DNA from: a virus
Direction: 5' to 3' (one strand)
DNA length: 41,201 bases
IMG/VR virus record: IMGVR_UViG_3300035698_017699
Coordinates: 1 to 41,201 of that record
The notes beneath the pieces are model-generated. The model worked only from the letters and a program-made list of their open reading frames with translations. It searched no databases and was not told the DNA's origin. The translations under genes were made by a program, and so were the position numbers. Shown here piece by piece: positions 1 through 37,244 of this stretch; position 1 is the first letter of the stretch, and every line of letters begins with the position of its first letter.

Positions 1-2919
1 ATAAGTCGTGCTTCAATTTCATTTTGGAGCAAATCAATGCTTAGCACTTGTCATATTATTTGTCGTATTGTCTGCTAAAGTTAATCCTGATTCACGTAAT
101 CAAGTTATATTTGTAGCTGTTCAACTACTAGGCGTTCATAAGGCTCAATTTATTTTTACATATACAGTATCAAAATAAGTTTTTAAAAATGCTTTTACAT
201 TTGTCCAAGTAGTTCTTATTAATGAAAAACTATCAGCACTATTCATTCAAACTATTTCATCTGCATTTACTAAAGTTGTTTTTTCAGTAGCTCAATGGTT
301 AATAGATGCTATTGAAGTCGCATCTTCATCTCAAGTATTTGTATTACTGTTAGTTCAAGTTATATCAGCCGTTGTTGCTATAGTTCAATCCTTATCAGGA
401 AAAGTATATGTTCTTGCTGCTGTATTTGCATTTGTAAAGAAAGAAGTAAATGTATTTGCTATATTTTTAAAATTAATCTTAAACAATGTAAGTCAAGCAT
501 ATCAACCTGTCGCATCTTTTTTTGCTAAAGTTTGGAATAATCAAGTTGCCCAATCATAAACTGATTTAACGCTAGGATATTTTGTATCACTTGCTTTGTC
601 TGTATCTATATCTATGCTTTTATTTGCTACATTTTCAGGAACATATCATATATTAGTTTCAGTTGCAGACCAGTTAGATTCTGTTTGTCCAGGTGTATCT
701 GTTAAAGCTCTTACTTGATCTCATATTTTTACTACCTCCGTTCACATAGTTCAAGCTACTGATATAATCCATAGGTCTCCTTTAAGTATTGCTCCTGCTG
801 TTCAACTTCATCAAGTTGTAGGATATGTATTTACCGAAGCATCGAAGTTTCATCTATCATCAATTAGTCAAACAACTAATGAATCAGCATAATCTTTAAT
901 TGCTTTAACTCATGGATATTTAATATTTGAGGCTCAATCTGTTACAATATCTGTACTCTTATTAGCTACATCTTCTTTAGATGCATCTAATCAAGAATAA
1001 AGTGTGTTAATTGCATTATCTCAAGTATTAATATTACTTAAATTTCATAAGTTAGTTATATCATCATCAGTTACATAGTTTTTATCTGTTGCTTCTGTGA
1101 TATTAAGATTAGATATAGTAGGACTATCAGTAAATTCTAAAGCTGTTGTTCAAGAATTAATTTGTGGTATTTTTAATCACTCGCCTGTATATGCGTTTGG
1201 AGTATCTGTTAATCATAAGAATGTAGTCACTCAAGTTCAACCAGCTCAACCACCTGCTGAAGTATTTGGAATTTTACCCCTTAAATCTTCTGTAGCATAT
1301 AAAGCCCAAGTTCAACTAAGATTTGTAAATGTAAATCTTGCTATTAAAAATCAAGTTCATTGAAATATTTTAGGCACTTCATATACAGAATAATTAAAAG
1401 CATCTGCTGTTGCATCTTCTGGAGCTGTTTTTGAATAAGTACTTGTTGGTAAATTACCCATTAATTGTGAAGTTTCTCCTGTTTTATTTGCTATTCACCA
1501 TACAACAATACTAAATGAAGTGTTATTTAAACTATCTCAATTTGCATCTGTTGTTAGAGATAATAAATCTGTTACTTGTGTATAAGGAGTTGGATGATTA
1601 ACTATGTGCATATCGTTAGTAGGCATTGATTTAGCTGGATATGTATGTGCGTGCATTTGATACACAATTCATTCTGTTATTTGAACATAAGCATTAGTTG
1701 GTAATCAAGTTACTGTTCATTCAGCTCAACTATCCCATTGTGCTTCTAATAATCTAATTCTAGTTCATAAATGTACTACGTGTCATTCTTCATCAGATAA
1801 ATCATTATTTATATTCTTATTTTGTAATGCTCAATCTGCTTGTGTTAATGTTGCTGTTTGAACTACAACCTCTGCACAAGGTATATAAGCCACTGTTGGA
1901 TATCAACTTGTACTAGAGTTAAGCGAATAATCTGAACATAATATATATATATAATTCTTTTGTGGATTTGTTGCAGTTCAAGGTGTGATAGTAACTGTTG
2001 GTGGAGTTGAAACATCTAATAAATGCCAACCTTCTTTACATAATAAAGTTAATGTATCGGCTCAATCAGAAGCAGTTAAAGAACCAGTAATTGTAGTTCA
2101 ATCACTAGTAACAGATAAATCAATATTTTCTCTACAAGTTCAATTCCAAAAGTTCTCAAAAGTATCTTCTTTTGTCCTTCTTGTTTCTATATTTATTACT
2201 CAATTAGTTGCATCTTGTACTAAAGTTAATCAAACAAATATTTCATATCAAGGTAAAACTGGGGAAGTGTTAGTTAGTTCTCCTGCCACAGTAGCACTTA
2301 AATATAAAGGTTGTGCTAAGGTATATGCACTAGTATCTATATTTCTAACTCTACCATTCTTAGTTACTATTCAATGTGTTCAAGTTGGAATATCCATAGT
2401 AGACATTAATACTCAATTACCAAATCATTCAAATGTATCAGCTATTGCTAACTCAATTTTTTGATAACCATCAGTATGAACTCCTTTTATACGAGTTGCT
2501 TTACCATTTAATATAGTAGAACCAGTATTATTATATACAACCTTAAATGTTTCTTGTCAAACTTGTAATATAGGTCAAAGTCCTGTTGGTATATTTAAAG
2601 TGTATTCATCTGTATTCCAAGTTATTTCTTGTCAGTCTGTAAGTTTTATTGATTTTATTAATGACATATTATCTAAGTCATCTACTACTATTCAAGATTT
2701 TTGAATTCATTTAGCTCATCAATCTCATTTTACTAAAGCATTATCTGTAATATTTGCACCTGTAATAACATCTCAAATATCAGATACCTCTCATGCATCG
2801 TTTTTTTTCTTTAAAACTCCTGAATCACTAAAAATAGCAAGATTACCAGAATCGGGAGTATCAACTCCCGCCTCTGGTGTATTACTTAATTCTAATGGTT
2901 TTATTATTTTATTCTGCAT
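1..2919 (-). CDS. Large tail fibre/appendage protein, C-terminus beyond the window
   Basis: A code-25 frame runs from the ATG at 2919 to the window edge, giving 973 residues with no TAA or TAG; the C-terminus lies outside. Most glycines are TGA. The second half has two copies of a tail-fibre module with E-(D/N)-VANKS-(T/I)-DI followed by KYP-x-VK, and a later stretch with GTNSGTNTG-like turns and TSAKHGFAPKG, all common in phage fibre and appendage proteins. An AYTGEGLK segment and a GAGGTG glycine cluster look like linkers. The frame starts 20 bases after the stop of the next fibre gene. I infer a distal fibre or receptor-binding role; the host ligand cannot be read from the sequence. Confidence 0.85.
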
Positions 2920-11567: not shown

Positions 11568-14216
11568 TTAAAATGTTAAACCAGAGGGTAAAGATAAAGA
11601 GGTTCATCAGCTTGATAAAGGGGTATCAACTCATCTTTTAAATAATCCTCAAAGATATGAATTTTCTTCAATTTTTAATAAATAACCATTTGTTGATACC
11701 GCTTCTTTTAGTATATCTTTTTCATATGAATTTTTTATCTTTTCAGCTTTTAATGAATCAATCATTCACATTATAGTTTGTTCCTTAGCCCCAGAAACTC
11801 ATGCTCTTCTTTTTCATTCGTCATCTAATATTATTGACTTTAAGAAAGATAAAGTTTTTTCTCAAAATAATCATTGAAGTTCATTTGAAGATACTCATCC
11901 TCATGTTTTATTTAGATCATATAATGAAACAACTTCTTTTCCTTCTTTTTTTCTTTCATTAATTGCTTTATTTAACATAGTAGAAGCAGTAATACCTATT
12001 CAATTATAACTAAGGTCTATTTCTCTATTTTTTCATTTAGATATATTAGCTTTCCAATCTTTTAATTCTAATGGAGTCATTTGTCAAGGTCTTTGTATTG
12101 CTAAATTAGAATTTCAAAACTCTAATGCGTCTACATCTGTTTTACCTATGCCTAAAACATCTGCTATAATTTTACCTAATGCTGTACCAATTACTACTCA
12201 TATAGTAACTCATGCTAGTCATGCAACTATTCAGCCTGCTATAGTGCTTCACATAACAGATGCACTTCAAAGAACTGTTTTAGAAGCAAAAGCCATTCAT
12301 AATGCACCCGTTATAGAGTTTACTAATAATGCCTTAGTTCATGCAGCTAATACTAATCAAACAACTAAATCACCTCAAGCAGAACCTCAAAATATTTTTC
12401 TTATTAATTTTATTCCAGGGGAGTTAAATGCAATCTCAAACATATGAATCATTGCACCAATTCATTTTGTGATAGCTGTTATTGTTCTCATAACAGCTTC
12501 AAAGTCTTCTTTTAAACTACCATCTGCAGCATATATTCAGAAAGCCTTTAATGCCTTTCACATTTCAGCTAAAAATGGATTTGTTTTTTTAATGGTTTCT
12601 AAGTTTTTATCAAATACTTCTATAAGATTATTAATATTTATATTTTTACCTTGAAGCATTCATGTTAATGCTTTTAAAACTCAATTTAATGACGGCTCTA
12701 GTTTACCAAGTGCATCATTTTTAGCAGCAGTATATACAGATGAGGCCTGGTTATATAAATAAGCAAAAGATGCTTCAGTTTGTTTCTTTTTAGCTAATGA
12801 TTTTTCAGCTCTAGATTCTTCTGTTCAAAATGAATTTATTATATTATTAATATCAAGTTCACCTCATTTATATGCACTCATTAATTCTTGTCTTACTTCC
12901 TGTGCTCATTGAATCATACTTAAAAATTCACCCGCATTTAATCATATTTTTTCTGCTTTTTTCATAGCATCCATATAATTTCATAATGCTTCTTCTGGAG
13001 TAGCTGAAATAAGCTCTCAATCTTCTCATTCCACACTAAATAGTTTATTTTTAACTTCTGCCGTAGAATCATATCCTTGTAAAAACTTTCTAACTTTATT
13101 TGTTTTTTCTTGAGTTCCCATAGTAAAGGGTTGAAATACTCACTCTGAGTCTTTTTTTCACTTCAATGTAGCTATTACTTTATTTGAGGCTTTATGTGAC
13201 TCGTTAAGCTGTGATGTTTCTGATCTACTTAATGCAGAAGTATGTCTAGAGGCCAACATAACACTTTTTAACTTAGTCCCCCTTGCATATCTAGCTAACA
13301 CTCATTCTATTGTAGCTCATTGTACAGACATTCAAGTAAGTACAACCCTACTTATTCATGTACTTAGGGTATGTAAATCTCAAACGGATTCATCCATAAA
13401 AGAAGACATCATACCTAATCATTTTATAATATTTTCTGGATTTTTTAAATCTTCTGGCATATATCCGTCACTTAACATCATTCTAGTATATAACTCAGAA
13501 GCATCTCCTATTGTACCTCAATGTCATTTAGCCCATAATCAAAGCTCTCATAATGCCGCGGTTACTTCTTGTACTTGAGTAGCCGCTTCTTTATCGGTAG
13601 TGTCTTTACCTATATTAATTGGTATTGCTCATGAAACTATTGGAGATACTTGAGCCACAAATTCTGCTGGATTTACTCCAGCTTTTGCGGCTGCTTGATT
13701 TATACCTTTATATAATTCTTCTTTACCAACCTGATTATTATATGGATTAGCAATATTACTAAGTACTGTCATTTCATTTGAAAAATCTAGATAATCACTA
13801 GTAGCTCTACGTAATTGTATACCACCCGTTATTGCTGCAAATGTACCCATTAATTTAGTTGCTCTAACTATATCTCTTCCCATTCATTTAAATCACGCAC
13901 TCATACCAGAAAACATTTTATTTCCAGTAGTACCTCACATTTTGCTAAGAGACTTGTTTAATCTATCTACTTCAGAAGCTGATTTTTTAGCTTCATCTCA
14001 AATACCATCAACACCTGTAGCTGCTTTTTTAACAGCATTATTCATAGACCTGGCATTTTTAACTATTTTATTCATAGAGGTACCTAACGAAGCCAAGTCT
14101 GCTTTAAACTCTTTTAAAGATTTTTCTGCACCATGAAGGGCTCACTGTATTCACTTAACAGCAGATACAAGACCTTTATTATCTCATTTGAATTTTATAT
14201 TTAAAGTTTTTGCCAT
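11568..14216 (-). CDS. Tail tape measure protein (882 aa)
   Basis: The longest continuous structural frame begins MAKTLNIKFKWDNKGLVS, followed by a helical KSLKEFKADLASLGTSMNK region and AAATGVDGI. Near residue 110 it has MGRDIVRATKLMGTFAA and a GINQAAAKAGVNPAEFV block, a tape-measure layout. A predicted membrane-like stretch lies around residues 620-680 (ALLVNSITGAL, VMGSTIAGGIVAGLAG with many TGA glycines), as in other tape measures, which enter the host membrane. Short C-terminal helices end in LSLPSGLTF. It sets tail length and scaffolds the tube. The 882 residues suggest a tail of roughly 130 nm if the usual ratio near 1.5 angstrom per residue holds. Confidence 0.93.
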
Positions 14217-14221
14217 AATTT

Positions 14222-14901
14222 TTATTTAGAAAATTTACCAGCTCTTATATCCGCTACTTTTTTATCAAAATTTGGATCTATCATTTTTCTACCTAATGCA
14301 CTTTCTTCTCAAGAGTTGGTTTCTTTGTCAATTGATTTTTTTTCAAATTCGTTTTGCTTTTCTTTAACTGCCCAGATCCAGTACCATTGCCCTTCGGTAA
14401 TTTCAGTCACTCTACAGCCAAAAAATGAACAAGCTTCTCTAGAGTGTATGAACTTAAAGACATCCCACGCACTGATTTTTTTTTTATTTCTGAAATGAGG
14501 TCTAGGAAGTCTTTTTCTGTCTCTAAACTTTGTGCTGGAGCATATCTTTCTTGAGTTCTATTATATAAGTCAAATAAAGCATCTGTTTCATCTACTGAAA
14601 GCTCACCCACTTCATCTATACTTGCAAAGAATTTAGTGTCTGTCTCTCAAACAAAGCAGGCTTTTCTTAATAGTTCTCTAGTTGTGAAATTTAAAACTAT
14701 ATTTATGTCTTCTTTGAAGCCTGCTTTTTCTGCTTCTGATTTTCAAAAAAGAGTGCTTTTAAATATCTCGTCTTGAGTTAATACCCTTAATCAAATTCTT
14801 AGTGTATCTAGAAAAGGAAAATCATATACTTCTATAGTGTTTACTCATCTTCTTATTTTTCTAAGTTCAGCATAAGTCATTTCAGTTTTTTTATTGTTCA
14901 T
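14222..14901 (-). CDS. Tail assembly chaperone, -1 frameshift fusion (226 aa)
   Basis: After the lysine codons that end at 14476, the -1 frame reads ISAWDVFKFIHSREACSF, then EITEGQWYWIWAVKEKQ, and ends RAGKFSK with a TAA at 14222, six bases before the tape measure start. The downstream part is rich in Trp, Phe and charged residues and reads as natural protein, unlike the Lys-rich zero-frame tail. This matches the gpGT-type product of many tailed phages, made by a minority of ribosomes. A sequencing error in the A run would give the same picture; the position just upstream of the tape measure favours true frameshifting. Confidence 0.75.
14293..14901 (-). CDS. Tail assembly chaperone, zero-frame product (202 aa)
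   Basis: The gene lies directly upstream of the tape measure, the fixed place of tail assembly chaperones (lambda G, XkdN). The ATG at 14901 gives MNNKKTEMTYAELRKIRRG, an EVYDFPFLDTLRIGLR segment, and an acidic helical region (VGELSVDETDALFDLY, then SLETEKDFLDLISEIKKK). In zero frame it continues past a TGA (VEG) to a TAG at 14293, adding a Lys-rich tail. Under the standard code it would stop at that TGA. A -1 shift on a run of ten A within it yields the longer fusion described separately. The chaperone coats the tape measure during tail assembly. Confidence 0.82.
14476..14485 (-). promoter_or_regulatory. A10 slippery site for -1 frameshifting
   Basis: On the coding strand the sequence is GAAAT, ten A, then TCAGTG. 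Zero frame reads AAA AAA AAA TCA; one base back reads AAA AAA AAA ATC AGT and enters the long second frame. Lys tRNAs can re-pair perfectly on such a run, and transcriptional slippage is also possible. No obvious stem-loop was checked downstream. Confidence 0.65.
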
Positions 14902-14912
14902 ATTTATATATA

Positions 14913-15362
14913 TTATTTAGTATAAGTAGCTGTTGATGTTGGAGTTTCCCACACCTTCAGTGATTTTAATTTTATTCAATAATCTCTAATTAATGGTAAT
15001 TCAATTATCTCAAACCAATATTTACAAAGATTTTCCGCAGTAGGCATAAAATCTAAAAAATGTAATTTACAAGGGTCTTGGTCTCATAAGTCAATCATTT
15101 TTATAAGATATTCTTTAAAAGGATCTTCTTTATAAAATACTGCTCAATGATCATATTCTTTATCAATATAATCCAACATAACCTGTTTTAAGTCTCAGTA
15201 ATCTATTATCATTCAAAAATTACTCGCATACTTAACATCACTAACTTCTCACTCAACAGTAGCTTCAATTTTATATCTATGTCAATGTAGACTTCTACAC
15301 TTACTTTTATGATAACAAACTCTATGAGCCATGTCTATCTCTATTTCTTTTGTAATATTCAT
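14913..15362 (-). CDS. queD: QueD-like 6-carboxy-tetrahydropterin synthase (149 aa)
   Basis: The frame has the full PTPS/QueD signature: zinc ligands H13 and the C22-R-S-L-H26-G-H28 block (the C-x-x-x-H-G-H motif specific to QueD), GMIIDYGDLK near residue 50, a D71-H72 pair, PTAENL near residue 108, and a terminal KVWETPTSTATY with E139. QueD converts dihydroneopterin triphosphate to 6-carboxy-tetrahydropterin, the first committed step to preQ0 and 7-deazaguanines. Phages use this route to make modified guanine in DNA or to boost host queuosine. It sits between the tail tube and the chaperone, 12 bases upstream of the latter, an unusual place. No queC, queE or transglycosylase is visible in the window. 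Confidence 0.9.
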
Positions 15363-15429: not shown

Positions 15430-15455
15430 ATAAAACTAGAATTAACTAGTTTTAT
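15430..15455 (-). terminator. Rho-independent terminator after the tail tube gene
   Basis: A perfect 10-bp inverted repeat (ATAAAACTAG, loop AATTAA, CTAGTTTTAT) overlaps the tail tube stop codon. On the minus strand it is followed by a short T-rich stretch. It would reduce transcription into queD and the chaperone while keeping tube RNA high. Confidence 0.6.
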
Positions 15456-15865
15456 GTATCTGTTTTAGATGTTATTGTCCACCCTGAACAACTTCAACTC
15501 ATTTTGAAAGTAGAAGACTCAGATAGAGAAACATCATGAGAATTTACGGTACATTCTTGTAATACAAGTATTTGACCTAAATTTGTAGAATCTGTTCTAT
15601 CTGGGTTAACAAACGTTAACTCAATATTAAATTTGATACCATCTTTTAGGGTATTTAAATCTTTAATATTATCATATAGAACAACTTGGTCAGCACTCCA
15701 ATCGTATTCAGCTTGCTTTCTCCTTCTCAAAGAACCTCATATAACTTTTATTATATCTTCAGGAGATTTTCAATTAACAGTAACTCAGCTTACTACTGCT
15801 CTTTGGTCTCAGTTTATAAGGATAATTCATGCAGATATATCCAAAGCATCTTTTAAAACACTCAT
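15452..15865 (-). CDS. Tail tube protein, XkdM/core-like (137 aa)
   Basis: MSVLKDALDISAGIILINGD starts a 137-residue frame with a VVSGVTVNG strand, a basic SLRRRKQAEYDW stretch, and DGIKFNIELTFVN. It ends GSCSGWTITSKTDT. The size and the place directly after the sheath gene fit the myophage tail tube (core), though direct sequence signatures of this family are weak. Seven or so glycines are TGA, which split the gene under the standard code. A hairpin lies between sheath and tube, and a terminator overlaps the stop, consistent with separately tuned high expression. Confidence 0.75.
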
Positions 15866-15926: not shown

Positions 15927-17264
15927 TTATAATGCAATTTTGAAATTTAAAGTGATAAAGTTCAAAGGTTTACCAGGAGAAATAGCAAGATCAATATTAA
16001 TTTTAGTATCATCTTCAGAATCAGTAGTAACAATTGGTTCTCTATATGCAGGAGTATTAGTATTAGCATCTGCAATTAATATATCATTACCTGCAAAAAT
16101 ATCTAGTAATGAGATAATTTTTTGTTTAATACTTTCTCTAATTTGAGGAGTATTACCTTTTTGCATATATAATGTTCTAATATTATCTCAAATAGTTTTT
16201 TCAATAACATCTACATTCAATCTAATTGAAGCTTCTCTCCATGTAGTATCAGGAACTCAATCTGTAGTTTTACTAGTAGTTACAAATCTAACTATATGAA
16301 TTGTACCATATTTTAATTCAATAGGAGTAATTCAGCCAGATATTAAACTATCTAAATCAGTACCTAGTGCATTAATACCTCAAAATCATACAAACTCTGT
16401 AAAATTATGATTAAGTTTTGGTAATCAATTTCAAACAATTGCACCAGCTAATGCAGCAGCACTTTCTCAACCACTTACTGTATTTCAGTCAAAATCTATA
16501 AATAATGGAAAAGGTATTATTACTCTATCGCTATTAGCTGTAGTAGCCTTAACTATAACAGCAGCAGCATCATCTCATGATTCAGCTCATTGAACATATA
16601 CACAAGGAATTCAATTAAGAGTAGTAGAATTTGTACACATTAAAGTTATAGCTGCAGCAACTACTACAGAGTTAGATTCTGAAACTACTAGGCTTTTAGA
16701 TTCATCTGCCTCCATAGCGGTAATAGCCGCTGTATAATCTCAGTCTACTTTTGCGGTAACTATTCTTGCTGTTTCACCAATATAGTGAGCATACGTTAAA
16801 GCAGTTGTAAATGTAACAGTTGTACCTATTCATGTAAGAACTTCTCTTTTTTCTTCCCTAGAATAAGTATTACCTGTACCAACAAAAACTTCATCACCAG
16901 CAGTATAAATCGTAGCATCTGCTACAGTTACTGTGGCAACTCATGCGGCGCTATCGCCTGTTAAAGTTCACTCAGCCGCAGCTGTAGCACTATCCATTGT
17001 AGGAACTCAAATTGAAATAGCCCTAATCGAACCAGCTCATTCAGCAAAAGCTCTCCTAATCATAGGAACAAGACTTGCTCAATAAGTATAGTCTGAGCCA
17101 AAAATTGTGTCTGCTTCAGATATTGAAGAAATTGTATAAACTTGATCAGCAGTTCATTTTTCAGAAGTTCAAATTATACCCACAACTATATTAGTTGTAC
17201 TTGGAGTAGTCATTAACTCTGTTACTTCAGTTATCGAAACCTTTGGAACTAATAAATTAGTCAT
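15927..17264 (-). CDS. Contractile tail sheath protein (445 aa)
   Basis: The protein begins MTNLLVPKVSITEVTE followed by TNIVVGIIGTSEKG, a typical sheath N-terminus. Near residues 55-80 it has FGSDYTYGASLVPMIRRAF, and the C-terminal third holds TTWREASIRLNVDVIEKTI, RTLYMQKGN and the final PLNFITLNFKIAL strand. These fit the phage tail sheath family (gpFI/XkdK type), where the C-terminal strand hooks neighbours in the contractile lattice. This identifies the virion as a myovirus. The 445 residues fit the usual 400-480. TGA glycines occur throughout but GGN also appears often. Confidence 0.93.
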
Positions 17265-17289: not shown

Positions 17290-17886
17290 TTAAGAAGTTT
17301 CTAAGGTTGTACTAAATTCCGTATCTAGTATTTTAGAATTAACTTCCTCAGAAAGATAATCAACGGAGAAATTTACGCTAATTGACGCAATGTGTAAATT
17401 TGGGTCAAAGCTAGGTATAATCGCTCAATCTATATCTTTATTAAAGTAGAACTTCATTTGTAAATCTGTGGGGGCTCATACTTTATCAACACCCGCAAAT
17501 CTTCTAATGGGTATATGTGTTCTACTTCAAATTGAAGATCACTTTAATGCTTCATACAAAAACCCTTGTAATTTATTACATTCTGTAGTTGTAGTTCACA
17601 TTATATCAAATTGCAATAAGGAGCTATAAGTATATCAATACAAAGTATTGACAGTACTAGATGTTCCTCAATTAATTCAATGGTATCACCCAATTCTATT
17701 ATTTGACCAAGTATCATTTGACACTCGTTTCAATACAATAATTGGTAAAGTTAATTGTATCTCCGTATCTGGAGTATCAGTTCTAAAAGTTACCCCTATA
17801 AAATTTCAAGTATTATTTAAGTAATATACCCAACTTTTTATTATATCTGTTAATAAGGTTTCTTGTTGTACTGAAACGAATGTCAT
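17290..17886 (-). CDS. Putative tail terminator / tail completion protein (198 aa)
   Basis: The frame opens MTFVSVQQETLLTDIIKSW and contains TPDTEIQLTLPIIVLKRV, a GTTTTECNKLQGFLYEAL helix and a final IASISVNFSVDYLSEE segment. I do not recognise a named family. Its place between the gp10-like protein and the sheath, its size, and the strand-helix-strand pattern fit a tail terminator (XkdJ or Mu gp37 position). Such proteins cap the tube and join it to the connector. Six or more glycines are TGA. The call rests mainly on gene order. Confidence 0.55.
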
Positions 17887-21604: not shown

Positions 21605-22564
21605 TTATTTAACTCTTATATTTGTAATTTGGATTTGAAATTCTTCAGCTCTATTTACTAATACAGTACATTCTGTAACCATAAATTTAATAGATGCTCC
21701 AGTTTTTGCTAAATCTGCTTTACCTAAACCATATAAGTCTTCCATGTAGATAACTGATTGTCATTGAGTACTTTCACAGACAATAAGAATATCTTCAACG
21801 GTATTACCTGCATAAGTAGCAGTATCTCCAGAAATTGCAAATGTGTTAATAAAAGGTAAATTACCCGCCATAGAAGCAAAGTTTTTAACTCTTAAACCTG
21901 TAGAAACTTCGTTTGTAGCATCAAGATTAACTCTAACATCACCAGAAAGTGAATCGTCAATAGCTCTTTGCATACCAAAACCAGTATATATAGCAGTTGG
22001 TCTTACTCCATAAGTAGTCATTATTAATTCAATACCTTGATTTAATAAATCTGGTCTAAAACCTAAAGCATTATTATTATCATCAACAACATTAGTAGTA
22101 ATACCTACTTTTAATCAATCAAATTGTAATGCTGAAACACCATCATCACCAGTGATTATAAATTGTTCCTCATCTTGAATTGTTTCTCTAATTGCAACCT
22201 CTAATTGTTCACTTTCTTGTTCTAAGAAAGTTTTACCAGCAGCAAGCATTTTATCTGTAATAGATTTAACTTTACCAAACTCTTTATAGATTGCACTTCT
22301 TCTAACATACCCAGTAGCATCTTCAGTTGGAGTTCAACCTTCAGCAAATGGAGAATTACCTACACCAAGTGTAGTCATAACATTCCATGAAGCGGCTAAA
22401 CCAGAACCAGTTTTTCTAGGAAGTCTGTCTCTAATTGGAGTTTCTTTTAAAGGAAGTCTATTAATAAATCCATCTAAATTTTCTCTAGTTAATATTGCAC
22501 CAGCTACATAAGTAGGAGTTTCTAATGTTTTTTCAACATTATTTAGTGTGTCTAATATACTCAT
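21605..22564 (-). CDS. Major capsid protein, HK97-fold (319 aa)
   Basis: The frame starts MSILDTLNNVEKTLETPT, then NRLPLKETPIRDRLPRKTG, a typical major capsid N-domain with the E-T-P-I-(R)-D block. The middle has IYKEFGKVKSITDKMLAAGK, EAIRETIQDEEQFIITGD, and PTAIYTGFGMQRAID, with the final IKFMVTECTVLVNRAEEF strand. This matches encapsulin-like HK97-fold capsid proteins. It has only about three TGA glycines against some two dozen GGN codons, unlike the fibre genes. Flanked by the protease-scaffold gene upstream and a terminator downstream. No signal or extra domain is seen. Confidence 0.9.
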
Positions 22565-26933: not shown

Positions 26934-29792
26934 TTAAAATAAACTTATACTATTTTTTTCTTCTATAGCTCTTTGTAAAACTTCTATCTTATAATCCATT
27001 TCCATTTGTTTTTCTACTTGCTTTTTTAATCTTTCATAATATTTTTCTTTTTCCCTTATGGCTCTATGATGAGCTAATGCTGGACTCTCGTCTTCATCTT
27101 TAGCTATTAAATTTTGCATTGATATAGAACTTTTTGGAGTATGTTCTACTATATTAGCACAAACTCAAGCCAAAGCATCTGCTACATCTTTACTATTATG
27201 TACAAATACTCCACTAGCTAAAGCAAAGTTCTCTGTATTAGGTACAGTTATGTCGTATACTTTTATAGGAACTTTAAGAATTAATTTTTTAATACTTAAT
27301 ATCTTGTGGTTATGATAACTTTCTACTGTATTTAATTTTCCTCTTCTTTTAGCTTTTTGATAATGCATTCAACATAATCATTTTGCAGAGTGCCTGTTTT
27401 TACATCAATCTATATTACATTTTTTATTTTTTTCTCCATAAACTCAGTCTTCCCATAATTTTTTCATTTTATTAGAGTGTTTTTCTGTATGGTTTAATTT
27501 TATATATCATTCTTTCATTTGTTTTTTTCTAACTTCCCAAAATTCTTTTCAATGATGACTAGCATGTTCTTTTTGTGACATTATTTCTAAATTACCTCTA
27601 GAATTATTTCTTTTATTAAGGTCTTTGTGATGTACTATTTTATTTTTAGGTAGTCATACAGCTAATTTATGAGTTAATACTCTTTTTTTTCTAATAGGAC
27701 ACCGAACTCTTTCATATTCCGCATATCATCATTTAAAGCTAACACTTCTATATAATGGCATTATACTTATTTCTTGTGTTAAGTTTTGAGCCTGAACCCA
27801 ATCTCAATCTATTGTCATAAATAAATGTTCTGGTGTACATTTTATTACTGAATAATTATCTAATAATATTTCTACTAATTCTTTTGTTTCTTTTGTAACT
27901 CTACAGTTTTTACCTCACTGAATAGAGACTCAGCTTTTATCAATACTATAAACATCAAAATGTTTTCTGTTAACCAATTCTTCCATTGTAGGACAAGTTC
28001 AATCAGCTAATGCTATCCTAGTATCTCAAGTAAAACAACCAGATGGTGGATGATCTACCTTTGTTCATTTAATTAACTCTAATTGTTTTAATTCCCTTTC
28101 TAACACAGCATCATATGGTATTTCTATCCTATCTTCATATATAGCTGCTTTTACAATATCATAAGGTCAGGTGTCTTTATCCACTGAAACATAATCTGTT
28201 CTAAATCATTTCTTCTCTATTATTTGTCTGAAATCTTTGCTCGCATACTGATCAAATGTCACTAGCTTAATTGCATATCACCTATCTTTTAAATCATAAA
28301 TTCTTTGCCTTACCTCTGAAAGATCCACTTCTCCTGTGTCTTCTGTTATTCAAATTCTTTCTGTTAAGTCAATAACAAAACTCATCCTATACTCATTTAT
28401 TGTTTCGTCCTTAATCCATCATCAGAAGTGGCCCATGCAAAATCAAGCATGATCTCATTTTCAATCTCTATTAAATCATATATCTATATGAATAAAATAA
28501 GGAATTCTTTGTGGTCTAAGTTTAAATTTATACTGTCATGGTGATATTACTGGATTTTCAATAGACATATCAAACATATCTGTTACTTTTTTTGGGTTTG
28601 AGAAAAATCAAGATATTGATGCAGATGGAGTAGCTCAAAAATCTCTTTTAGCTTTCTCGGGGTTTTGCTGAAAAGATACAAGGAAATCTCATGGAATCTC
28701 CCGAACATCATAATCAATTGTAATTGGTCATCAATCAATATAGTTTATATTCCTGCCTTCTTTTTCAAGTTTTTTTGGATTTCATCAAATAATTATTTCA
28801 CCTCTTCTAATATCAAAGTAAAACTTGCCCTCCATATCAAGATTTTTTTCATTTTTAGCCTTCCATGTTGGTAGTTGGATAGAATATATTCAAGGATATT
28901 TTTTTCTTCAAGAAGCAGTAACTTCTCTACTTCTTCAAATCATTTCTGTGATGAAATCTCACTCATATCTAGGAGAAGATATTGCCATTATTAGTCAGTT
29001 TCATTTTCAGAATCTAGAAATAATTCTGGCTTGTAGCGAATCAAATATATCTTTTGCAACACTTTGCTCATCATTATCTAAATAGAAAGCGGCTTCATCT
29101 AAAACCGCACAAAAAATATTAAATCATAATGGTGTAGTAGCTTTTGAGTTTCATGAGGTTAATAATACTTTTTCTTTTTTAAACCTTATTGAAGTTTGTT
29201 GAACATCAGGATTAAATTGCATAAAAAAAGGACTTCAATCATATCCGTCAGAACCATATATAAATGCTTTTATACCCGCAAAAACTACTTCTAAAGCTTG
29301 CGTAGAAGTAACTCACATATTCATAATAGTAATTGGCTTATCAGCTACTACATCATATGTCTTATGAGGGTCTCTTAAACACAAAAGATGGTGTGCCCAA
29401 TAAGCTACCATTATTTGAGATGAGAAAGATTTACCAGATCAAATACCCGCTAATTCCACAGCTTGAACATAAGCCCCTTCTATAATATCTCTACATATTT
29501 TTCTTACTTGTGGATATATTCCTTCTCAGTTTCTAGTTTTTTTACCAAGATAATGAGGGTCATTAAGAAATGTGTCCAGTGACACTTTTGGCATTCTCCA
29601 CTTTACTGGATCATATAACCACTCATATATGTGGAAAAAATCTGTTTTATTAACAGCATGTTTTAATGCTTCATTTATCATCAGCTGCATTTGTTCAGAA
29701 AAACAATCTACAGCATTCATTAGCTCTTCAATAAATATGTTTTCATCAAATTGCTCTAAATTTTTTGGTAAATCGGAATCCTTAAACCTCAT
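26934..29792 (-). CDS. terL: Large terminase subunit interrupted by an HNH intein (952 aa; 671 aa after splicing)
   Basis: ATPase motifs: Walker A A-G-I-G-S-G-K-S (residues 115-122, G118 by TGA) and Walker B AVLDEA with D232-E233. Nuclease motifs: HIDIG (D437), VTFDQYA (D514) and, after the intein, SKDVADALAG (D869/D872). The intein fills residues 586-866 and splits G585 from S867. Spliced product would be 671 residues, long for the family because of an 80-residue charged, helical C-terminal tail (KEKYYERLKKQVEKQ). TerL packages DNA through the portal and cuts it. Until the intein leaves, the last nuclease motif is separated by 281 residues. The start at 29792 is MRFKDSDLPKNLEQFD. Confidence 0.95.
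27195..28037 (-). mobile_element. Intein with HNH homing endonuclease in TerL (281 aa)
   Basis: Block A is CFTGDTRIALADGT, block B VIKCTPEHLFMT (T-x-x-H), block F KVYDITVPNTENFALAS, and block G GVFVHN followed by Ser. This is the standard Cys1...His-Asn | Ser+1 splicing set. An HNH domain sits in the middle with IVHHKDLNKRNN and NLEIMSQKEHASHH, and a further CNIDGCKNRHSAKGLCGMHY zinc knuckle occurs after it. HNH inteins are homing elements that copy themselves into intein-free terminases. All key splicing residues are present, so splicing should work. It uses TGA glycines (FTG, DG), showing it is adapted to code 25. Confidence 0.93.
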
Positions 29793-30353: not shown

Positions 30354-32489
30354 TAAATAAGTTATCAAAAATATTTTTAACAACAGGAACTGAAACTGCA
30401 TTTCACATTTGTTTATATGCTTGGCTATTTGATACAAAATCGGTAGACCAATTATCAGGGAAGCCTTGTAGTCTAGAATATTCTGTTGGAGTAAGTTTTC
30501 TTATCTGCATTCCCTCTGAAATTTTAATCCCTCTCCTTTATTAGTTGTTAGTGTGGGTGACTGGGTATTTATATTATAAATATTTCAATTAATTCATCTT
30601 CAACTAGGGTTTACATTTGTAATTATTTTTTTACAAACCATATATCATTGCTTGTTTGTAAATCAAGATCAAGTTCATAGTGTACCGCTAACCCTTTCCA
30701 TTATCCTATTATTAAATTTATTAAATAATATTTTTGGTTGTCTATGTCATCATTGAGATGTGTTTAATGTTGGTGCGATGGTATCATATATTCTTTTTAA
30801 ACTTTCATAGCTTAATTTATTATATTGTTCATCTGTCATATAGAATTTCTCGTCAACTTCTTCTTCTAATATATCTTTTAAGAAAGTAGTAAGTTCTTGT
30901 CATTGTGGGAATTTATATATTAAATCTTTTAATGGTATTTTTTCTCATACTATAAAAACTCTTTCTCTGTTTTGTGGTAATCAGAAGTCTTTTGTATTTA
31001 ATACTTTAAAATTAAATAAATACCCTGCTTCCCATATTCTTTCAAATATACTTTTTCTAAACTTGTTAAACTTCTTACTCATCAATCCTTTAACATTTTC
31101 AAAAATAAAATATTTAGGTTGTTTTTTTTCTAATATTTGTAATAAGTATTTTACTAATACCGTTCTTCATCATTCTAAGTTTTGTTTTCATGCCACTGAT
31201 ACATCCTGACAATTATGAACTATCGCATTATTAGCTGTATACGAATTATCATTTTCAACCTCTATATTATAAACTGTATTTATTTCATTTAAATATTCTT
31301 TTGATTTAAAGGGTAGCCATATATATCAACCTATTTCCAATCAATTATCTTGTTTCTTCTTTTCTTTTTTAATATCTAAATCAAAACTATCTCTTTGATT
31401 ACATATTCTTCATTCTATTATACATTTAGGTTTTCTTTTTGTATAATAAATAGACGTTGGTGTTCAATAAACCTTGTGAACTAATTGCTGTATTCATAAT
31501 ATTAAGTTTTTAGATACTGAAGTTACTCTGTAATATCAATTTTTTTTAGTTCAATCTCAATCTATATATCATAATATTAATTGCTCTAAATATTTTTTAT
31601 CTAATCACATTATGTTTGTTGGTATAAATTTTCAATAACTATATTTTCAAAATTGTTCCATATAATCTACTAATTCCGTATTAGTAATATAGTATTTTAA
31701 AACTGTTCTTTCTTCTGCTTTAGAATAATTATATAATCATACTAATAACTCTTCTACTTCTTTATATTCATTTTTATTACAACATAACACAACTCTATTT
31801 GAAGTACTAAATATATTGGGTCATCTACTATATTTTCACCACCAACCATCGGCCAATAATCTTCAAACTAATTTATAAAACTTTAATTCTTTAGTGTTTT
31901 CTGTAATAGTTTCTTGTCTATTAAATCATATAAAATCTCATTTATTTAAATGTTCTACATTTTTCCATTTAGGTTCACTAAAAATTCTTTCATATCTTCT
32001 GATTTTATTATTCCGCTTCCTGGTCATCTCTCTAACATAATAAGGATGTTCATTTGTAGCAAAAGTATCTAAACTTCATTGTATTTTTATTTTATAAATT
32101 CATTTTTTATTTGGTGTTATAAAATGTTTTAATACTTTTTGATATTTATTGGTATGAGTTAAAACATAGTCTCAAACTATTATATCTTTAATATCTTTGT
32201 ATCAATCTTTGGTTAATATCATTGTTCACTCTTTAAAGCAAGGAAATCCACCAGTTAATAAATCAAAATCGTCTAATAAATCTATATCTATTTCAGATAT
32301 ATCTCCTAAGTCTTTGGTATTTGGAAATCTCTTATTATATACTTGTTTTGCGTATTTATCAATTTCTGAATAACCAATGCACTCTACATTCTCTTTTCAA
32401 ATTGATTGTTCAAGAGCTAGATGAAATCATCATACTCAAGCAAAGGTGTCTATATATTTTACTTTTTTACATGCCTTACATTGTTTCAT
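30343..32489 (-). CDS. C5 cytosine DNA methyltransferase with intein; frame break near the 3' end
   Basis: Motif I is Y-I-D-T-F-A-G-V-G-G-F (residues 12-22, its glycines all TGA). Motif IV reads LTGGFP then, after the intein, C427-Q-D-V-S. Motif VI is FIFENVKGL, motif VIII QNRERVFIVG, motif IX TIAPTLNTSQGG and TQSPTLTTNKGEG, and motif X QMGNAVSVPVVK. The intein (residues 84-426) ends just before the catalytic Cys427. The first frame ends by TAA at 30501; motifs IX-X (IRKLTPTEYSRLQGFPDNW onward, 59 residues) lie in the -1 frame to 30343. A missing A in the TTAAAATTT run near 30522-30525 would rejoin them. Spliced and corrected, the enzyme is about 372 residues. It would methylate cytosine in phage DNA, probably to escape restriction. 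Confidence 0.88.
30520..30526 (-). other. Frame break in the C5 methyltransferase
   Basis: In zero frame the gene reads TTA AAA TTT CAG and soon stops. One base back it reads AAA ATT TCA GAG and continues into the conserved motif X. Either a lost A in a run, an assembly error, or Lys-tRNA slippage. Confidence 0.7.
31212..32240 (-). mobile_element. LAGLIDADG intein at the catalytic cysteine of the methyltransferase (343 aa)
   Basis: Block A is CFKEGTMILTKDGYKDIK, block B FATNEHPYYVRE (T-x-x-H), block F TVYNIEVENDNSYTANN, and block G AIVHN followed by Cys. Two LAGLIDADG helices are visible: LVGRLLADGWWG and LILGYIDGDGTKKN, the sign of a DOD homing endonuclease. Insertion is between Pro and Cys of the motif IV PCQ, so the +1 splicing nucleophile is the enzyme's own catalytic Cys. 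Glycines in the endonuclease motifs are partly TGA. Splicing residues look intact. Confidence 0.93.
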
Positions 32490-32509
32490 AATCGTTTCTT
32501 TATTAAGTA

Positions 32510-32653
32510 TTATTTTATTTCAGTAGTTGCTGTTGTAACTGTCATCACCATTTTACCTTTTCAACATTGAGGACATCAATCATTACAATAAGGGCAATAA
32601 CTACATCAGCAAGGGCAAATACATTTACTACATATGTGCATATAATTATTCAT
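32510..32653 (-). CDS. Cysteine-rich small zinc-binding protein (47 aa)
   Basis: MNNYMHICSKCICPCGCSYC is followed by PYCNDGCPQCGKGKM and a Thr-rich tail. Ten cysteines fall in the first 35 residues, in C-x-x-C and C-x-C pairs, enough for two zinc sites or a metallothionein-like cluster. No family recognised. It starts 164 bases upstream of the methyltransferase start on the same strand; a role with that gene is possible but not shown. Two glycines of the cysteine region are TGA. Confidence 0.6.
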
Positions 32654-32692
32654 AGTTTTTGTTTAAGTATTATTATAGCTCCTTATATTAGT

Positions 32693-32914
32693 TTAAAATA
32701 ATCTATTTATTATTCAATCTAAAGCCAAACTTCAAATTAGTTCGTGTTTATTTATGCTTAAACTAGTATTTCATTCTGAATCCACTACACAATATGTATA
32801 ACTAACCCTATCTTCTACAAATGATATTTGGTATCAATCATCTCTATCCCATTTATTTCAAGAGTGAATAAATCAGTTTATTTTCATAATATTTGTAAAT
32901 CTTTTATTTCTCAT
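32693..32914 (-). CDS. Hypothetical small protein (73 aa)
   Basis: The frame MRNKRFTNIMKINGFIHSG continues with GYQISFVEDRVSYTYCV and ends in KHELIGSLALDGIINRLF. Soluble, mixed alpha/beta, no recognised family. TGA codes for six or so of its glycines. It starts three bases after the stop of the 26-residue membrane peptide upstream, which suggests translation as a pair. Confidence 0.55.
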
Positions 32915-32917
32915 AAT

Positions 32918-32998
32918 CTAATAATTTAATAAATAAATTGCTACTCACATTGCTAGTATAGTTGATAATCATAGTATTAGTCTTTCTTTAGGTGTCAT
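32918..32998 (-). CDS. Single-pass membrane peptide (26 aa)
   Basis: MTPKERLILGLSTILAMGVA and a short IYLLNY tail give a positively charged start and one hydrophobic helix, then TAG. It lies between the 73-residue protein and the thioredoxin-like gene without gaps. Too short for family assignment, but the helix is convincing and glycines use TGA. Confidence 0.45.
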
Positions 32999-32999
32999 A

Positions 33000-33245
33000 T
33001 TATTTTATTATTGCTAAAATATCTTTCTCACTTATTTCTCAATTTAATCTAGCTATTTCTTTTTCTCATTTATAGAAGATTATAGTTGGTACATTAGTCA
33101 GCTTTTTATTTCTTATATATCTATCTCTTTTTTTTATATCTGACATTTCAAATTGTTCTACTTTTAAGTTTAGTTTATCAAAGTGTCTTTGGACTAAATT
33201 ACAAGGCTTACATCATTCTAGGTAATATTTTTCTATTCTTATCAT
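33000..33245 (-). CDS. Thioredoxin/glutaredoxin-like protein (81 aa)
   Basis: MIRIEKYYLEGCKPCN carries the redox pair C12-x-x-C15 (G-C-K-P-C) after the first strand, then a helix (LVQRHFDKLN), and later TNVPTIIFYKGEKEIARLNG with the cis-Pro (V-P) and the following strands. It is a short Grx/NrdH-type thioredoxin fold. A partner could be a ribonucleotide reductase or the neighbouring rhodanese. The start ATG overlaps the rhodanese stop by seven bases, so both are probably translated together. Confidence 0.8.
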
Positions 33246-33529
33246 TGTTTATTATTATTCAAATAAGCCTCAATTCCTCACTCTATACTTATTGTATTAT
33301 ATCACATATTTTGTAATACTATTGCCATAAAGTCTGTTCTGCTTCCTGTTCTGCATATTAAATATACTGGTCTACTCATATTTATTTGACTCATATTATC
33401 TATTAATTCATCTTTTGGTATATGTATAGCTTGTGGTATTTTAGGAAGTGTTTTAAACTCTTCTTTTTCTCTTATGTCTATTAATTGGATTTTATTTAGA
33501 TCAAGTTTTTTAAATTCTTTTATGTTCAT
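33239..33529 (-). CDS. Single-domain rhodanese (96 aa)
   Basis: Residues 16-32 read LIDIREKEEFKTLPKIP, then AIHIPKDEL, and the active loop LICRTGSRT with C59. After TGA glycines it ends in GYNTISIEGGIEAYLNNN. These are the L-I-D-x-R-x-x-x-E-(F/Y), I-P and C-R-x-G-x-R hallmarks of a GlpE-like rhodanese, which carries sulfane sulfur on its cysteine. Under the standard code it lacks the final EGG helix. Phage-borne rhodanese is unusual; with the adjacent thioredoxin-like protein it may supply sulfur for tRNA or DNA modification, which is inference. Confidence 0.88.
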
Positions 33530-33555
33530 ATTATATCTTTTTTGTTAAAAACAAG

Positions 33556-33942
33556 TTATTCTAATGGCATTTTACCTCTTTTAAAACATTTTTCGTTATA
33601 GAATTTTCATGATTTTAAATAAAATTCTATTGTATAAATCATTTCTGCTATCATATCATCTCTTGTTTCCTTATCTAATACATTATAATTATATCTTAAA
33701 ACTTCTATAAGTTGTTCATGTGGTAGCATTGTTCAGAAGAAATCATGTTTCCCACTATGTTTAACTACATTTCATAATTTTTTATTAGCTCAATATTCAC
33801 TTCATTCTCTATGTTTTGCAATTAAATGATCCACATTTTCTTTAACCTTATTTCTAATCTTGCGAGTTTTCCTACTTAACTTTTTCTTTTTAAGTTTATC
33901 TGCTCTACTGGTATCATCAATTTTTAAAGGTTGGTTGTTCAT
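33556..33942 (-). CDS. Hypothetical basic protein (128 aa)
   Basis: The N-terminus is highly basic (ADKLKKKKLSRKTRKIRN), then EGSEYGANKKLG, FFGTMLPHEQLIEVL and a helical C-terminal IYTIEFYLKSGKFYNEK. No named motif is seen. A basic N-terminus with a folded second half suggests nucleic acid contact. The start is preceded by a 21-base leader identical to that of the 120-residue gene at 35812. Confidence 0.5.
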
Positions 33943-33944
33943 AA

Positions 33945-34088
33945 TTATTTTTTAATATTATTTAAACATTCCATTATCTCATCTCTTTTTTCTTCTATCA
34001 GTTTATCTATACTAGGTTTATCTAAACTTTGATTTCTATTTTCTATAAGAGTAGTTAGTTCATTTTCTAAGTCTTTTATTATTTTCAT
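33945..34088 (-). CDS. Small coiled protein, paralogue A (47 aa)
   Basis: MKIIKDLENELTTLIENRNQ, then SLDKPSIDKLIEEKRDEI, ending NNIKK. Its sequence aligns along nearly its whole length with the 48-residue product at 35316-35462: (E)-L-E-x-E-L-T-x-L-I-E, L-x-x-P-S-I-D-K-L-I-x-E-K-R-x-E-I. Probably a helical hairpin. Function unknown. Confidence 0.55.
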   Translation of the reverse strand: MKIIKDLENELTTLIENRNQSLDKPSIDKLIEEKRDEIMECLNNIKK

Positions 34089-34091
34089 TAT

Positions 34092-34298
34092 TTATTTATT
34101 TAATTTTAATTCTAATTTATTAATAACATCTTTACTTATTCTAATAATTTTGTTACCCCATCCCTCTTTTCAAGTCATTATAGTTTCCTTTAATCAATTT
34201 TTATATATCAACATAACTAGACTAGGTATAGATATTCAAAAATAATTAGCCACTTCTTTTCTTGTAAAATATTTCTTTTCAAGTTCTTGTCCTTTCAT
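34092..34298 (-). CDS. Small HTH protein, MerR/excisionase-like (68 aa)
   Basis: MKGQELEKKYFTRKEVANYF, then GISIPSLVMLIYKNG: (Y/F)-(F/L)-T-R-K-E-V-A-x-x-(F/L)-G-I-S, the helix-turn-helix of excisionase and MerR-type small regulators. The wing is TGKEGWGNKIIRIS. It may act in excision or in transcription control of the cluster. The TGA glycine at the turn (FGIS) matches the family's conserved Gly. Confidence 0.7.
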
Positions 34299-34319
34299 CT
34301 TTAGTATTATATTATGTAA

Positions 34320-34424
34320 TTAAAAATCTATCGTAAAACCATCTTCATATTCTCAATCTAAAAAGAAAAATCATATAAAAAATAATGTTATCCATATAAT
34401 TAAAAATATTTGTATTGCATTCAT
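34320..34424 (-). CDS. Single-pass membrane peptide (34 aa)
   Basis: MNAIQIFLIIWITLFFIGFF gives one strong membrane helix, followed by an acidic tail (LDGEYEDGFTIDF). No family. Likely inner membrane; the acidic tail would lie in the cytoplasm or periplasm depending on orientation. Confidence 0.45.
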
Positions 34425-34446
34425 ATTCCTTTATTTAATATATAAA

Positions 34447-34845
34447 CTAATTAATTTTTTCTAAAACTTGCCCTAATTTTGTAAATTTTTCTAGTCATAT
34501 TATTTCAAAGTAAAATTTTCAACTCCAATTGTTTATTTGGGTAATTCAGAAATTTAATCAAACCTCAAAAATATATTGTTTTTTTAGTCTTTCGTGTAGA
34601 GTTTTTATATTTTCTCTAAAATTATCTAATAGTTCTGCTCTTTTATAATGGTTACATTTTCTACAAGAACATAATAAATTATTTTCGTTATTCATTAAAT
34701 TATTAGTAGAATATCTAGAGTTTCAAGAAATTCTTTGAGGTACAATATGGTCTATTTGCATTTCTTTATATTCTATTTTTCTTCAACAATATCAACATCT
34801 ACCCTTTGTTTCATTATAAAATTTTTCTCTATCAGATTTCTTCAT
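34447..34845 (-). CDS. HNH endonuclease (132 aa)
   Basis: GRCGYCG (C17, C20) and MQIDHIVPQ (D32-H33) followed by NNENNLLCSCRKCNHYKRA form a complete HNH zinc-bound nuclease (C-x-x-C, D-H-x-x-P, N-x-x-x-L-x-C-x-x-C-N). A free-standing homing endonuclease or a packaging-associated HNH are the usual options; its distance from TerL favours the first. The C-terminal half (KLGQVLEKIN end) is helical. Stop is TAG. Confidence 0.88.
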
Positions 34846-34870
34846 CGTTTCTTATTATTAATAATATAAA

Positions 34871-35020
34871 CTAATTAATCTCTCATCTTTGTTTTGCCCA
34901 ATGTTCTCTATAATGCTCTTGGTGTTCTTTACATCTATAATAAAATCAACAGAATAATTTACAATTAGGACATTTTTTATTTATAGAAATATCATAAGCT
35001 ATTTTTCTTTTTTTAGACAT
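34871..35020 (-). CDS. Small zinc-knuckle protein (49 aa)
   Basis: MSKKRKIAYDISINKKCPNC continues KLFCGFYYRCKEHQEHYREH. Two or more Cys pairs with His suggest a single zinc finger in a basic short protein. Its ATG lies inside the end of the 99-residue gene (overlap of eight bases). No family recognised. Confidence 0.5.
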
Positions 35021-35312
35021 ATCTTTTAAGTGTAATAATTAAAGTATATTTATCCGACATTAATCATATACATTCATATCATTTTAACAGCTGTATCCAC
35101 TGCATTATTTCTCATTTTTTATATGATTCATAGTTTTTATAGTTTGTAGGTAAATATCATTCAACTACTATATTTCATTTAGAAGACATAGATATTTGTG
35201 GATGCTTTATTTCTAACTCTAATTGTATAATTTTTATTTCTTCTGTATTATATATATAATTTAAGTTTTTTCTTTTTCTTAAATCAATATCTTTTAAATA
35301 AACTTCTTTCAT
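35013..35312 (-). CDS. Hypothetical protein (99 aa)
   Basis: MKEVYLKDIDLRKRKNLNYI, a helical LELEIKHPQISMS part, then YKKGEIMQWIQLLKGYECIG and TLIITLKRYV. Mixed fold of unknown family. The context is the small-gene part of the early operon; the ATG follows AGATT. Confidence 0.5.
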
Positions 35313-35315
35313 AAT

Positions 35316-35462
35316 CTATCTATTAATAATATTATCTAAAACCTCCACTATTTCATTTCTTTTTTCTTTTATTAGTTTATCTATACTTGGAATATTTAAG
35401 TTTTGTGTTTTCTTTTCTATTAATTCTGTTAATTCAGTTTCTAGTTCTGTTATTGTTTTCAT
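35316..35462 (-). CDS. Small coiled protein, paralogue B (48 aa)
   Basis: MKTITELETELTELIEKKTQ, then NLNIPSIDKLIKEKRNEI, ending in DNIINR. It is about half identical to paralogue A at 33945-34088, so a recent duplication with other genes inserted between. Function unknown. It overlaps the 120-residue gene by 13 bases. Confidence 0.55.
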   Translation of the reverse strand: MKTITELETELTELIEKKTQNLNIPSIDKLIKEKRNEIVEVLDNIINR

Positions 35463-35812
35463 AATAAATTGTTATCAAGTAAATATTCTAGCATTTTTTC
35501 TATTGCTTGTAGTAGAGTTTTTCAACTAACTCAATGTATTCTAGTTATATTCATTCAATGTTGATATTGTACATACCAAGTAAAATCAAAAGGTCAGAAA
35601 TTTAAAAAATATCATTCTAGCTGTTTTGGCAAAAACTCTATTGCTTCTTCTAATGTTAAAGTTTTATATTTAAATATTAAATTTTCTTCACTATATAAAT
35701 TAAAAGTACATATATCAGGTTTTACTTCTTTAAACATTTGAAACCAACAATATTCAGTTTTTTTTAAATAAGGAGCTAGTCTTTTACTTAATTCTAAGTT
35801 TATTGTTTTCAT
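35450..35812 (-). CDS. Hypothetical protein (120 aa)
   Basis: MKTINLELSKRLAPYLKKTE, YCWFQMFKEVKPDICTF, LTLEEAIEFLPKQLEG, and after further TGA glycines GKTLLQAIEKMLEYLLDNN. The repeated L-x-E-A-I-E-x-(L/M)-L pattern suggests two similar helical ends around a beta part. I recall no function. Under the standard code only the N-terminal 66 residues are seen. Confidence 0.55.
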
Positions 35813-35814
35813 AA

Positions 35815-36012
35815 TTATTTTTTAATATTAATATTCTCACACTCACTCTCATCTACTATTAATGAGCTACAGGCTTGTTCCATCATAAACCTAACTCTTT
35901 CTTTAGTACTTTCTACTATGTCACATATAACTACATATTCTTTTCATTTGTATTTTAATATAGTAAGATCGTTTCCTACCATAAACTCTTTAGGTGTTAT
36001 TAGTTTTTTCAT
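35815..36012 (-). CDS. Hypothetical small protein (65 aa)
   Basis: MKKLITPKEFMVGNDLTIL followed by KGKEYVVICDIVESTKERV and an MMEQACSSLIVDESE tail. An alpha/beta pattern, no recognised family. It lies directly downstream of the DPPY methyltransferase. Confidence 0.5.
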
Positions 36013-36052
36013 TTTTTAATTATTTAATAATTTTAAATTCTTCTCAAAGTTT

Positions 36053-36829
36053 TTATTTTATTCTTTCTTTAGCAATATTAAAATAAGTTTCATCTAGCTC
36101 TATTCAAATTCACTTAATGGGATTTTTAATATACCTTTTCACTTCTTTATTAATTTCATTAATTGCAACTCAAATAGTTCAGCTTCACATAAAGAAATCA
36201 GCAATAAGTCATCAATTAGAATGAGTTAATATAAGTTTTTTATATAAATCTACAGGTTTTTGAGATGTATGTATTTTACTTCAAGCACTAGGTTCTGGAA
36301 TATCTAAAATTACATCAGTAGGATAATTACTGTATTCTCTTTTAAATTCTGCTTTATGGCTTGGTCTTACTCATGCAATAGTTCAAAATCTTCCTTTTCA
36401 AGCTTTAATAGTTTTATCACAAATAATTAATCATTGAGGATTGTATATCATTCTTCTTTTTTCTCATATTTGAGATATATGTCCCATAGGAGCTTTGCTA
36501 AAGACAAGTATATCTTCGTGTTTTGTCATAGGTCTATTTTTACTATGTACAAAATTAGTAGAATTGTTTTTTATCCAAGTATATTTATATTTATAATTTT
36601 CTATATCTGATAACATAACTCTAGGAGTAAAACTTCAACTTGCAAATATTATTATACTTCAATTTGGTTTTAATTTTTCCCAAGTTAAATCAAAGAATTT
36701 ATTAAAATCTACATATTTATCCCACTTACTAGCTATGGTATTATACGGGGGGTCAGTAATTATTAAATCTATACTATTATCTTCTAATTTATCCATTTCC
36801 TCTAAACATTCTCAATTTATTAGTTTCAT
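36053..36829 (-). CDS. DNA methyltransferase, DPPY (N6-A/N4-C) type (258 aa)
   Basis: Motif IV comes first (IDLIITDPPYN, D26-P-P-Y29), motif I last (ADFFMGSGTIGVAI, glycines by TGA), with PSAGSKIHTSQKPVDL in between, the beta-class order of N6-adenine/N4-cytosine methyltransferases. GIGIELDETYFNIAKERI closes the SAM site. Length 258 fits phage members. No restriction enzyme is next to it, so it is an orphan: it may protect phage DNA or mark it for packaging or replication control. Start context AATTATG. Confidence 0.92.
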
Positions 36830-36831
36830 AA

Positions 36832-37224: not shown

Positions 37225-37244
37225 AATTATTTATTATTTATAAA

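Follow-up and report, generated by a model that had tools for sequence, protein, structure and literature searches.

The QueD family itself is already known in phages, and what is new here is the poorly known phage group in which we found it. When queD of E. coli is mutated, the QueD encoded by phage 9g complements the defect, and phage DNA is protected by 7-deazaguanines (PMC6884629). The window, by which we mean the whole 41,201-nucleotide stretch analysed, carries a queD gene whose product belongs to the same family and has the same catalytic residues as the QueDs (phrog_2389) of phages 9g and Dp-1 and of the CAjan group. A literature search returned no report of 7-deazaguanine genes in phages of alternatively coded CPR bacteria. 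We consider it fairly probable that the gene encodes a working QueD that serves 7-deazaguanine modification of the phage DNA, with its partner enzymes coming from the host or from parts of the phage genome outside the fragment.

Genetic code, host and extent of the record

The record and the frame that marks its left edge are as follows.

1-41,201: IMG/VR virus record IMGVR_UViG_3300035698_017699, linear, 41,201 bases
1-2919, minus strand: 973-aa tail-fibre-like frame, cut by the left edge of the record

The record uses genetic code 25, in which TGA encodes glycine. Coding coverage of the whole record, taken as the fraction of its length in frames of at least 150 aa, was 0.95 with table 25 versus 0.09 with table 11, and TGA makes up 63% of the glycine codons genome-wide. 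This code is that of Gracilibacteria and Absconditabacteria, in agreement with the sequence-only reading of the DNA as a phage of a CPR host; the host, assigned from the genetic code alone, would belong to one of these groups. A search of genome contigs with a tRNA-Gly(UCA) pattern gave 13 matches, none of them from Gracilibacteria or Absconditabacteria. One contig (L026), placed in a "Lentisphaeria" MAG, resembles a mitochondrial genome in having respiratory-chain genes and TGA codons at positions that look like Trp, and mis-binning is probable.

The left edge falls inside the tail-fibre-like frame and PHROG/Pfam annotation recognised no replication genes on the 41.2-kb record, so the genome is probably incomplete. 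A search with the portal protein found a single relative of the phage, a 6.2-kb contig (L035) that is about 80–85% identical and ends short of queD. Searches for relatives with the sheath and chaperone proteins and with the protein encoded at 17290-17886 found none. The terminase large subunit gene (26934-29792) contains an intein at residues of about 593–866, where L035 has a gap, and the C5-cytosine methylase gene (30501-32489) contains one at residues of about 84–426.

The queD gene and its product

The gene and its signature motif occupy the following positions.

14913-15362, minus strand: queD, 6-carboxytetrahydropterin synthase / PTPS family, 149 aa (table 25, ATG start, TAA stop)
15279-15299, minus strand: C-x-x-x-H-G-H motif, with Cys22 at 15297-15299 and His26-Gly27-His28 at 15279-15287; Gly27 is encoded by TGA

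The frame stays open only when TGA is read as a sense codon, and its seven in-frame TGA codons encode all seven glycines of the protein. Five of these seven fall on columns where most relatives have glycine (HGH, GM(V/I)D, GDL, DHG and GIK), which favours glycine as the meaning of TGA; tryptophan was rejected on this ground. The exclusive use of TGA for glycine in queD, compared with 63% genome-wide, suggests that the gene fits this genome well and is adapted to code 25. The major capsid gene (21605-22564) uses TGA for 3 of its 29 glycines and GGT for 21, and glycine codon choice may follow expression level.

The protein matched Pfam PTPS (PF01242) over its full length (E=3.7e-31, 108 bits against a cut-off of 22.4) and the "QueD-like" family phrog_2389 (4.9e-32), and with profile E-values around 1e-31 a chance reading frame was rejected. 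With TIGR03367, the QueD model, it scored 82.3 bits, just below the cut-off of 89.25 bits, which is a naming threshold and no defining property. Of 10 other phage QueDs tested, 9 also scored below it (71.5–88.8 bits), among them members of full clusters and the annotated QueDs of MS1 and Bhz54. The shortfall is therefore no argument against QueD.

In QueD/PTPS enzymes, zinc is bound by residues corresponding to H13, H26 and H28, the catalytic cysteine is C22 in CxxxHGH, and D71-H72, E110 and E139 also take part. Aligned with ten viral relatives, the window protein has all eight of these residues, none of which varies within the viral set, and it keeps 25 of the 26 columns that are invariant in the other ten, the sole change being F55 to Y. 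The AlphaFold model (pLDDT 84.4) shows the PTPS fold, and Foldseek matched it, with E-values down to 4e-10, to QueD2 (7v0f), E. coli QueD (4ntk) and human PTPS, the same PDB proteins that the profile search found. This evidence upholds the earlier description of a complete QueD with its C-x-x-x-H-G-H motif and zinc ligands: the frame is intact, it matches the PTPS profile and every catalytic residue is there. By its residues the enzyme is predicted to be catalytically competent.

Surroundings of queD on the record

The genes around queD form a contractile-tail operon on the same strand, and their labels rest on different kinds of evidence.

15927-17264, minus strand: tail sheath (phrog_279, E=2.6e-21)
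15452-15865, minus strand: 137-aa gene directly after the sheath, putative tube by position
14293-14901, minus strand: 202-aa gene after queD with an A8 run and an overlapping frame, which together with its position make it a putative tail assembly chaperone
14222-14410, minus strand: overlapping frame after the A-run near 14343, candidate programmed-frameshift extension of the chaperone
11568-14216, minus strand: 882-aa gene, putative tape measure by position and length

The sheath was identified by homology, and the labels "tube", "chaperone" and "tape measure" reflect position and architecture: the 137-aa gene had no family or PDB match, the 882-aa gene had no PHROG or Pfam match, and the chaperone label rests on the A8 slippery run around 14343 followed by the overlapping frame, an arrangement like that of gpG/gpGT frameshifts. 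With this qualification, queD does lie between tube and chaperone genes, as first described. The accompanying remark that no metabolic gene is expected there was fair. Among the viral QueD loci for which we read the neighbourhood, none has queD in a tail operon; in these relatives the gene stands with pathway or replication genes, and we found no relative that has queD at this tail position.

The start of queD lies 89 bases past the upstream gene and its end 11 bases ahead of the next. The gene resembles its neighbours in strand, spacing, G+C, start context and TGA usage, and the last three make it look like an integral part of the operon. Promoter-like sites were no better than the shuffled level, and a clear promoter of its own was rejected. 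The same similarities argue against an assembly or binning artefact that wrongly joined queD into the tail operon, as does the finding that TGA-aware patterns revealed no other code-25 queD near enough to be the source. Such an error would be favoured by the lack of a second record over the queD locus, the only near relative (L035) stopping before it, and we regard it as very improbable.

A position among tail genes might also point to a structural role in the tail or to another pterin or T-fold role, in the folate or biopterin branch. PTPS-family enzymes have several activities, and a gracilibacterium without folate synthesis has been described (PMC6851277). We nevertheless judge roles of this kind decidedly unlikely, as a structural protein would not have kept the whole active site and the kin of this QueD occur with QueE and QueC, not with folate genes. 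A Glu substitution in the motif marks the PTPS-III (folate) type, and the motif here has Cys and no such substitution.

Searches of the 41.2-kb record, a fragment, with PF01227, PF06508, PF04055, PF01702, phrog_887 and local models found no FolE, QueE, QueC, TGT, DpdA or radical SAM protein; for the transglycosylase in particular, PF01702, phrog_887 (DpdA-type) and the local TGT-like model all gave no match on this fragment. This result confirms the observation that partner enzymes are missing from the window, and since the record is a fragment it is weak evidence on the pathway as a whole. Besides queD, the record carries three DNA methylase genes within 30501-38000, of C5, N6/N4 and phrog_799 type.

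Viral relatives and the proposed function

A first scan yielded 12 viral QueDs with 37–54% identity, none on contigs showing code 25. The records of these 12 nearest viral QueDs found first encode FolE in all cases, and QueC and a radical SAM/QueE match in 10 each; several also encode QueF and a transglycosylase of DpdA type (phrog_887). A profile scan extended the set to about 80 QueD loci, most with FolE and QueE nearby. Among ten records of this wider set checked whole, two lacked FolE, and both are short (18 and 9 kb).

The nearest relative of the window QueD (61% identity) is encoded by a code-25 phage, IMGVR_UViG_3300033562_002159 (L044/G013; 38.9 kb, G+C 0.21, code-25 coverage 0.73 versus 0.04). 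There, queD comes first in a queD-folE-queE cluster that lies close to replication genes, and the phage also carries an MT-A70 methylase, a small PTPS-like protein, a TIM-barrel protein and a dCTP-deaminase-like gene; queC was not found in it. The QueDs of the window and L044 group as sisters in the tree (100/98); the QueD of a standard-code phage, L002, comes next (97/81), and the code-25 pair sits within a clade of standard-code phage QueDs. This nesting fits movement of the pathway between phages across the genetic-code boundary. When TGA-aware QueD DNA patterns were used to look for more code-25 queDs, the sole code-25 match was a contig already known. Overall, these relationships support the descent of the window queD from a lineage of phage 7-deazaguanine DNA-modification genes.

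Beyond QueD, the window and L044 clearly share one tail-fibre-proximal protein (42%) and a 36-residue stretch. Because so little else is shared, a single gene could plausibly have passed from one code-25 phage to another, unrelated one, and the main rival to our interpretation is that queD hitch-hiked from a co-infecting phage as a moron or relic, with the pathway absent and little or no function. This would account for a queD that is alone on 41 kb and in an atypical late operon. On the other hand, the gene is intact and has kept 25 of 26 invariant columns despite 39–60% overall divergence, and TGA at all its glycines together with the conserved columns indicates long residence under purifying constraint. 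We therefore think a functionless passenger rather unlikely, and a working QueD for DNA modification remains the reading we favour.

A TIM-barrel family annotated as of "unknown function" (phrog_19058/20335) adjoins more than 30 viral QueD loci. Its members include the following.

L044, 12530-13324: TIM-barrel family member
L002, 15712-16500: TIM-barrel family member
L006, 12473-13273: TIM-barrel family member
L046, 10300-11118: TIM-barrel family member
About 30 more loci: TIM-barrel family members

The AlphaFold model of the L044 protein (pLDDT 90.9) had tRNA-guanine transglycosylases as its top Foldseek PDB matches, which makes the family a candidate for the base-inserting enzyme. It is likely, judging from the model, a divergent DpdA. 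Cui et al. 2023 reportedly described more DpdA subfamilies and 7-carboxy-7-deazaguanine in phage DNA, and the TGT-like family of the present clusters might represent one of those subfamilies.

Other genes recur in these clusters. A second small PTPS-like protein (phrog_17812, with an "HRH" motif) occurs in queC-less clusters (L044 11177-11533, L006 11507-11860, L002 14536-14892), and its L006 copy has a weak PTPS match (E=0.0012); it possibly acts on 7-carboxy-7-deazaguanine. A phosphoribosyltransferase-like "GVPRGG" domain is fused to FolE or lies beside it in phage 7-deazaguanine clusters (L003 5913-6770, L005 11042-11914, L013 10995-11969), and is unfused in L007 (10428-10829). In G001, a standard-code phage with a queC-less cluster, a chaperonin (GroEL)-like frame was seen by eye (L123, 5977-7458).

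Transglycosylases also bear on the possibility that QueD raises or restores queuosine in host tRNA and leaves the phage DNA unmodified. Phages with preQ0 genes and no DpdA are a recognised group for which this role has been proposed (PMC6884629), and the record lacks a transglycosylase. The closest kin clusters, however, have DNA-type or TGT-like transglycosylases. The hosts of the DpdA-less group reportedly possess the complete Q pathway. That a bacterium with hardly any cofactor synthesis should have one is doubtful, and a lone QueD would be useful only where every other step exists. We regard a queuosine role as possible but improbable.

In the favoured reading, that of DNA modification, QueD would take the 7,8-dihydroneopterin triphosphate that FolE makes from GTP and turn it into 6-carboxy-5,6,7,8-tetrahydropterin, the second step to 7-carboxy-7-deazaguanine and preQ0, and a 7-deazaguanine in the phage genome would shield it from host restriction enzymes. 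The genes for FolE, QueE and a TGT-like transglycosylase would lie on the portion of the genome that the record lacks, or the host or its prey would supply some of these enzymes. The queD gene would have been acquired from the pathway of another phage, and in the late tail operon its expression probably rides on late transcription. An Absconditabacterium lacks nearly all cofactor synthesis, yet has restriction systems of type I, II and III (PMC8080830), which makes a phage-borne pathway plausible; where hosts are restriction-rich and cofactor-poor, such phages would need to carry a large share of the pathway on their own genomes. Against this stand the separation of queD from any cluster, its place in a late operon and the absence of partners in 41.2 kb, and the three DNA methylases alone could cover anti-restriction. 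The suggestion of 7-deazaguanine in the phage DNA is thus borne out as to the origin of QueD in phage 7-deazaguanine clusters, but not by any partner or transglycosylase on the record; for this phage we infer both the existence of the partners and the modification of the DNA.

A broader scheme, which we put forward tentatively and do not expect to hold in full, is that code-25 CPR phages hypermodify guanine by a queC-less route of FolE, QueD and QueE with a divergent TGT-like transglycosylase, perhaps ending at 7-carboxy-7-deazaguanine, and that the window queD moved to the late tail operon, tying base supply to late transcription. Sister QueDs are now found in two largely unrelated code-25 phages, one of which has folE, queE and a TGT-like gene, and the TGT-like family beside more than 30 QueD loci is a testable candidate for the base-inserting enzyme.

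Compared with known systems, the window QueD has the fold and active site of E. coli QueD (4ntk/4ntm) and Acinetobacter QueD2 (7v0f), which are products of chromosomal bacterial genes with about 22–26% identity in structural alignments. Its identity to annotated phage QueDs is about 30–34%, and it differs from them in standing alone in a tail operon and in using code 25. L044 shares with the window a sister QueD and the same recoding, whereas its queD lies in a queD-folE-queE cluster with a TGT-like gene and most of its other genes are unrelated to those of the window. The next nearest QueD (54%), from IMGVR_UViG_3300020045_008807 (L002/G001), accompanies folE, queE and the same TGT-like family, with no queC found in that record. 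The few TGA stops of G001 suggested a code-25-compatible genome, a reading rejected on the seven that are present. Unlike the window, this phage thus uses TGA as a stop and has its genes in the order queE-queD-...-folE.
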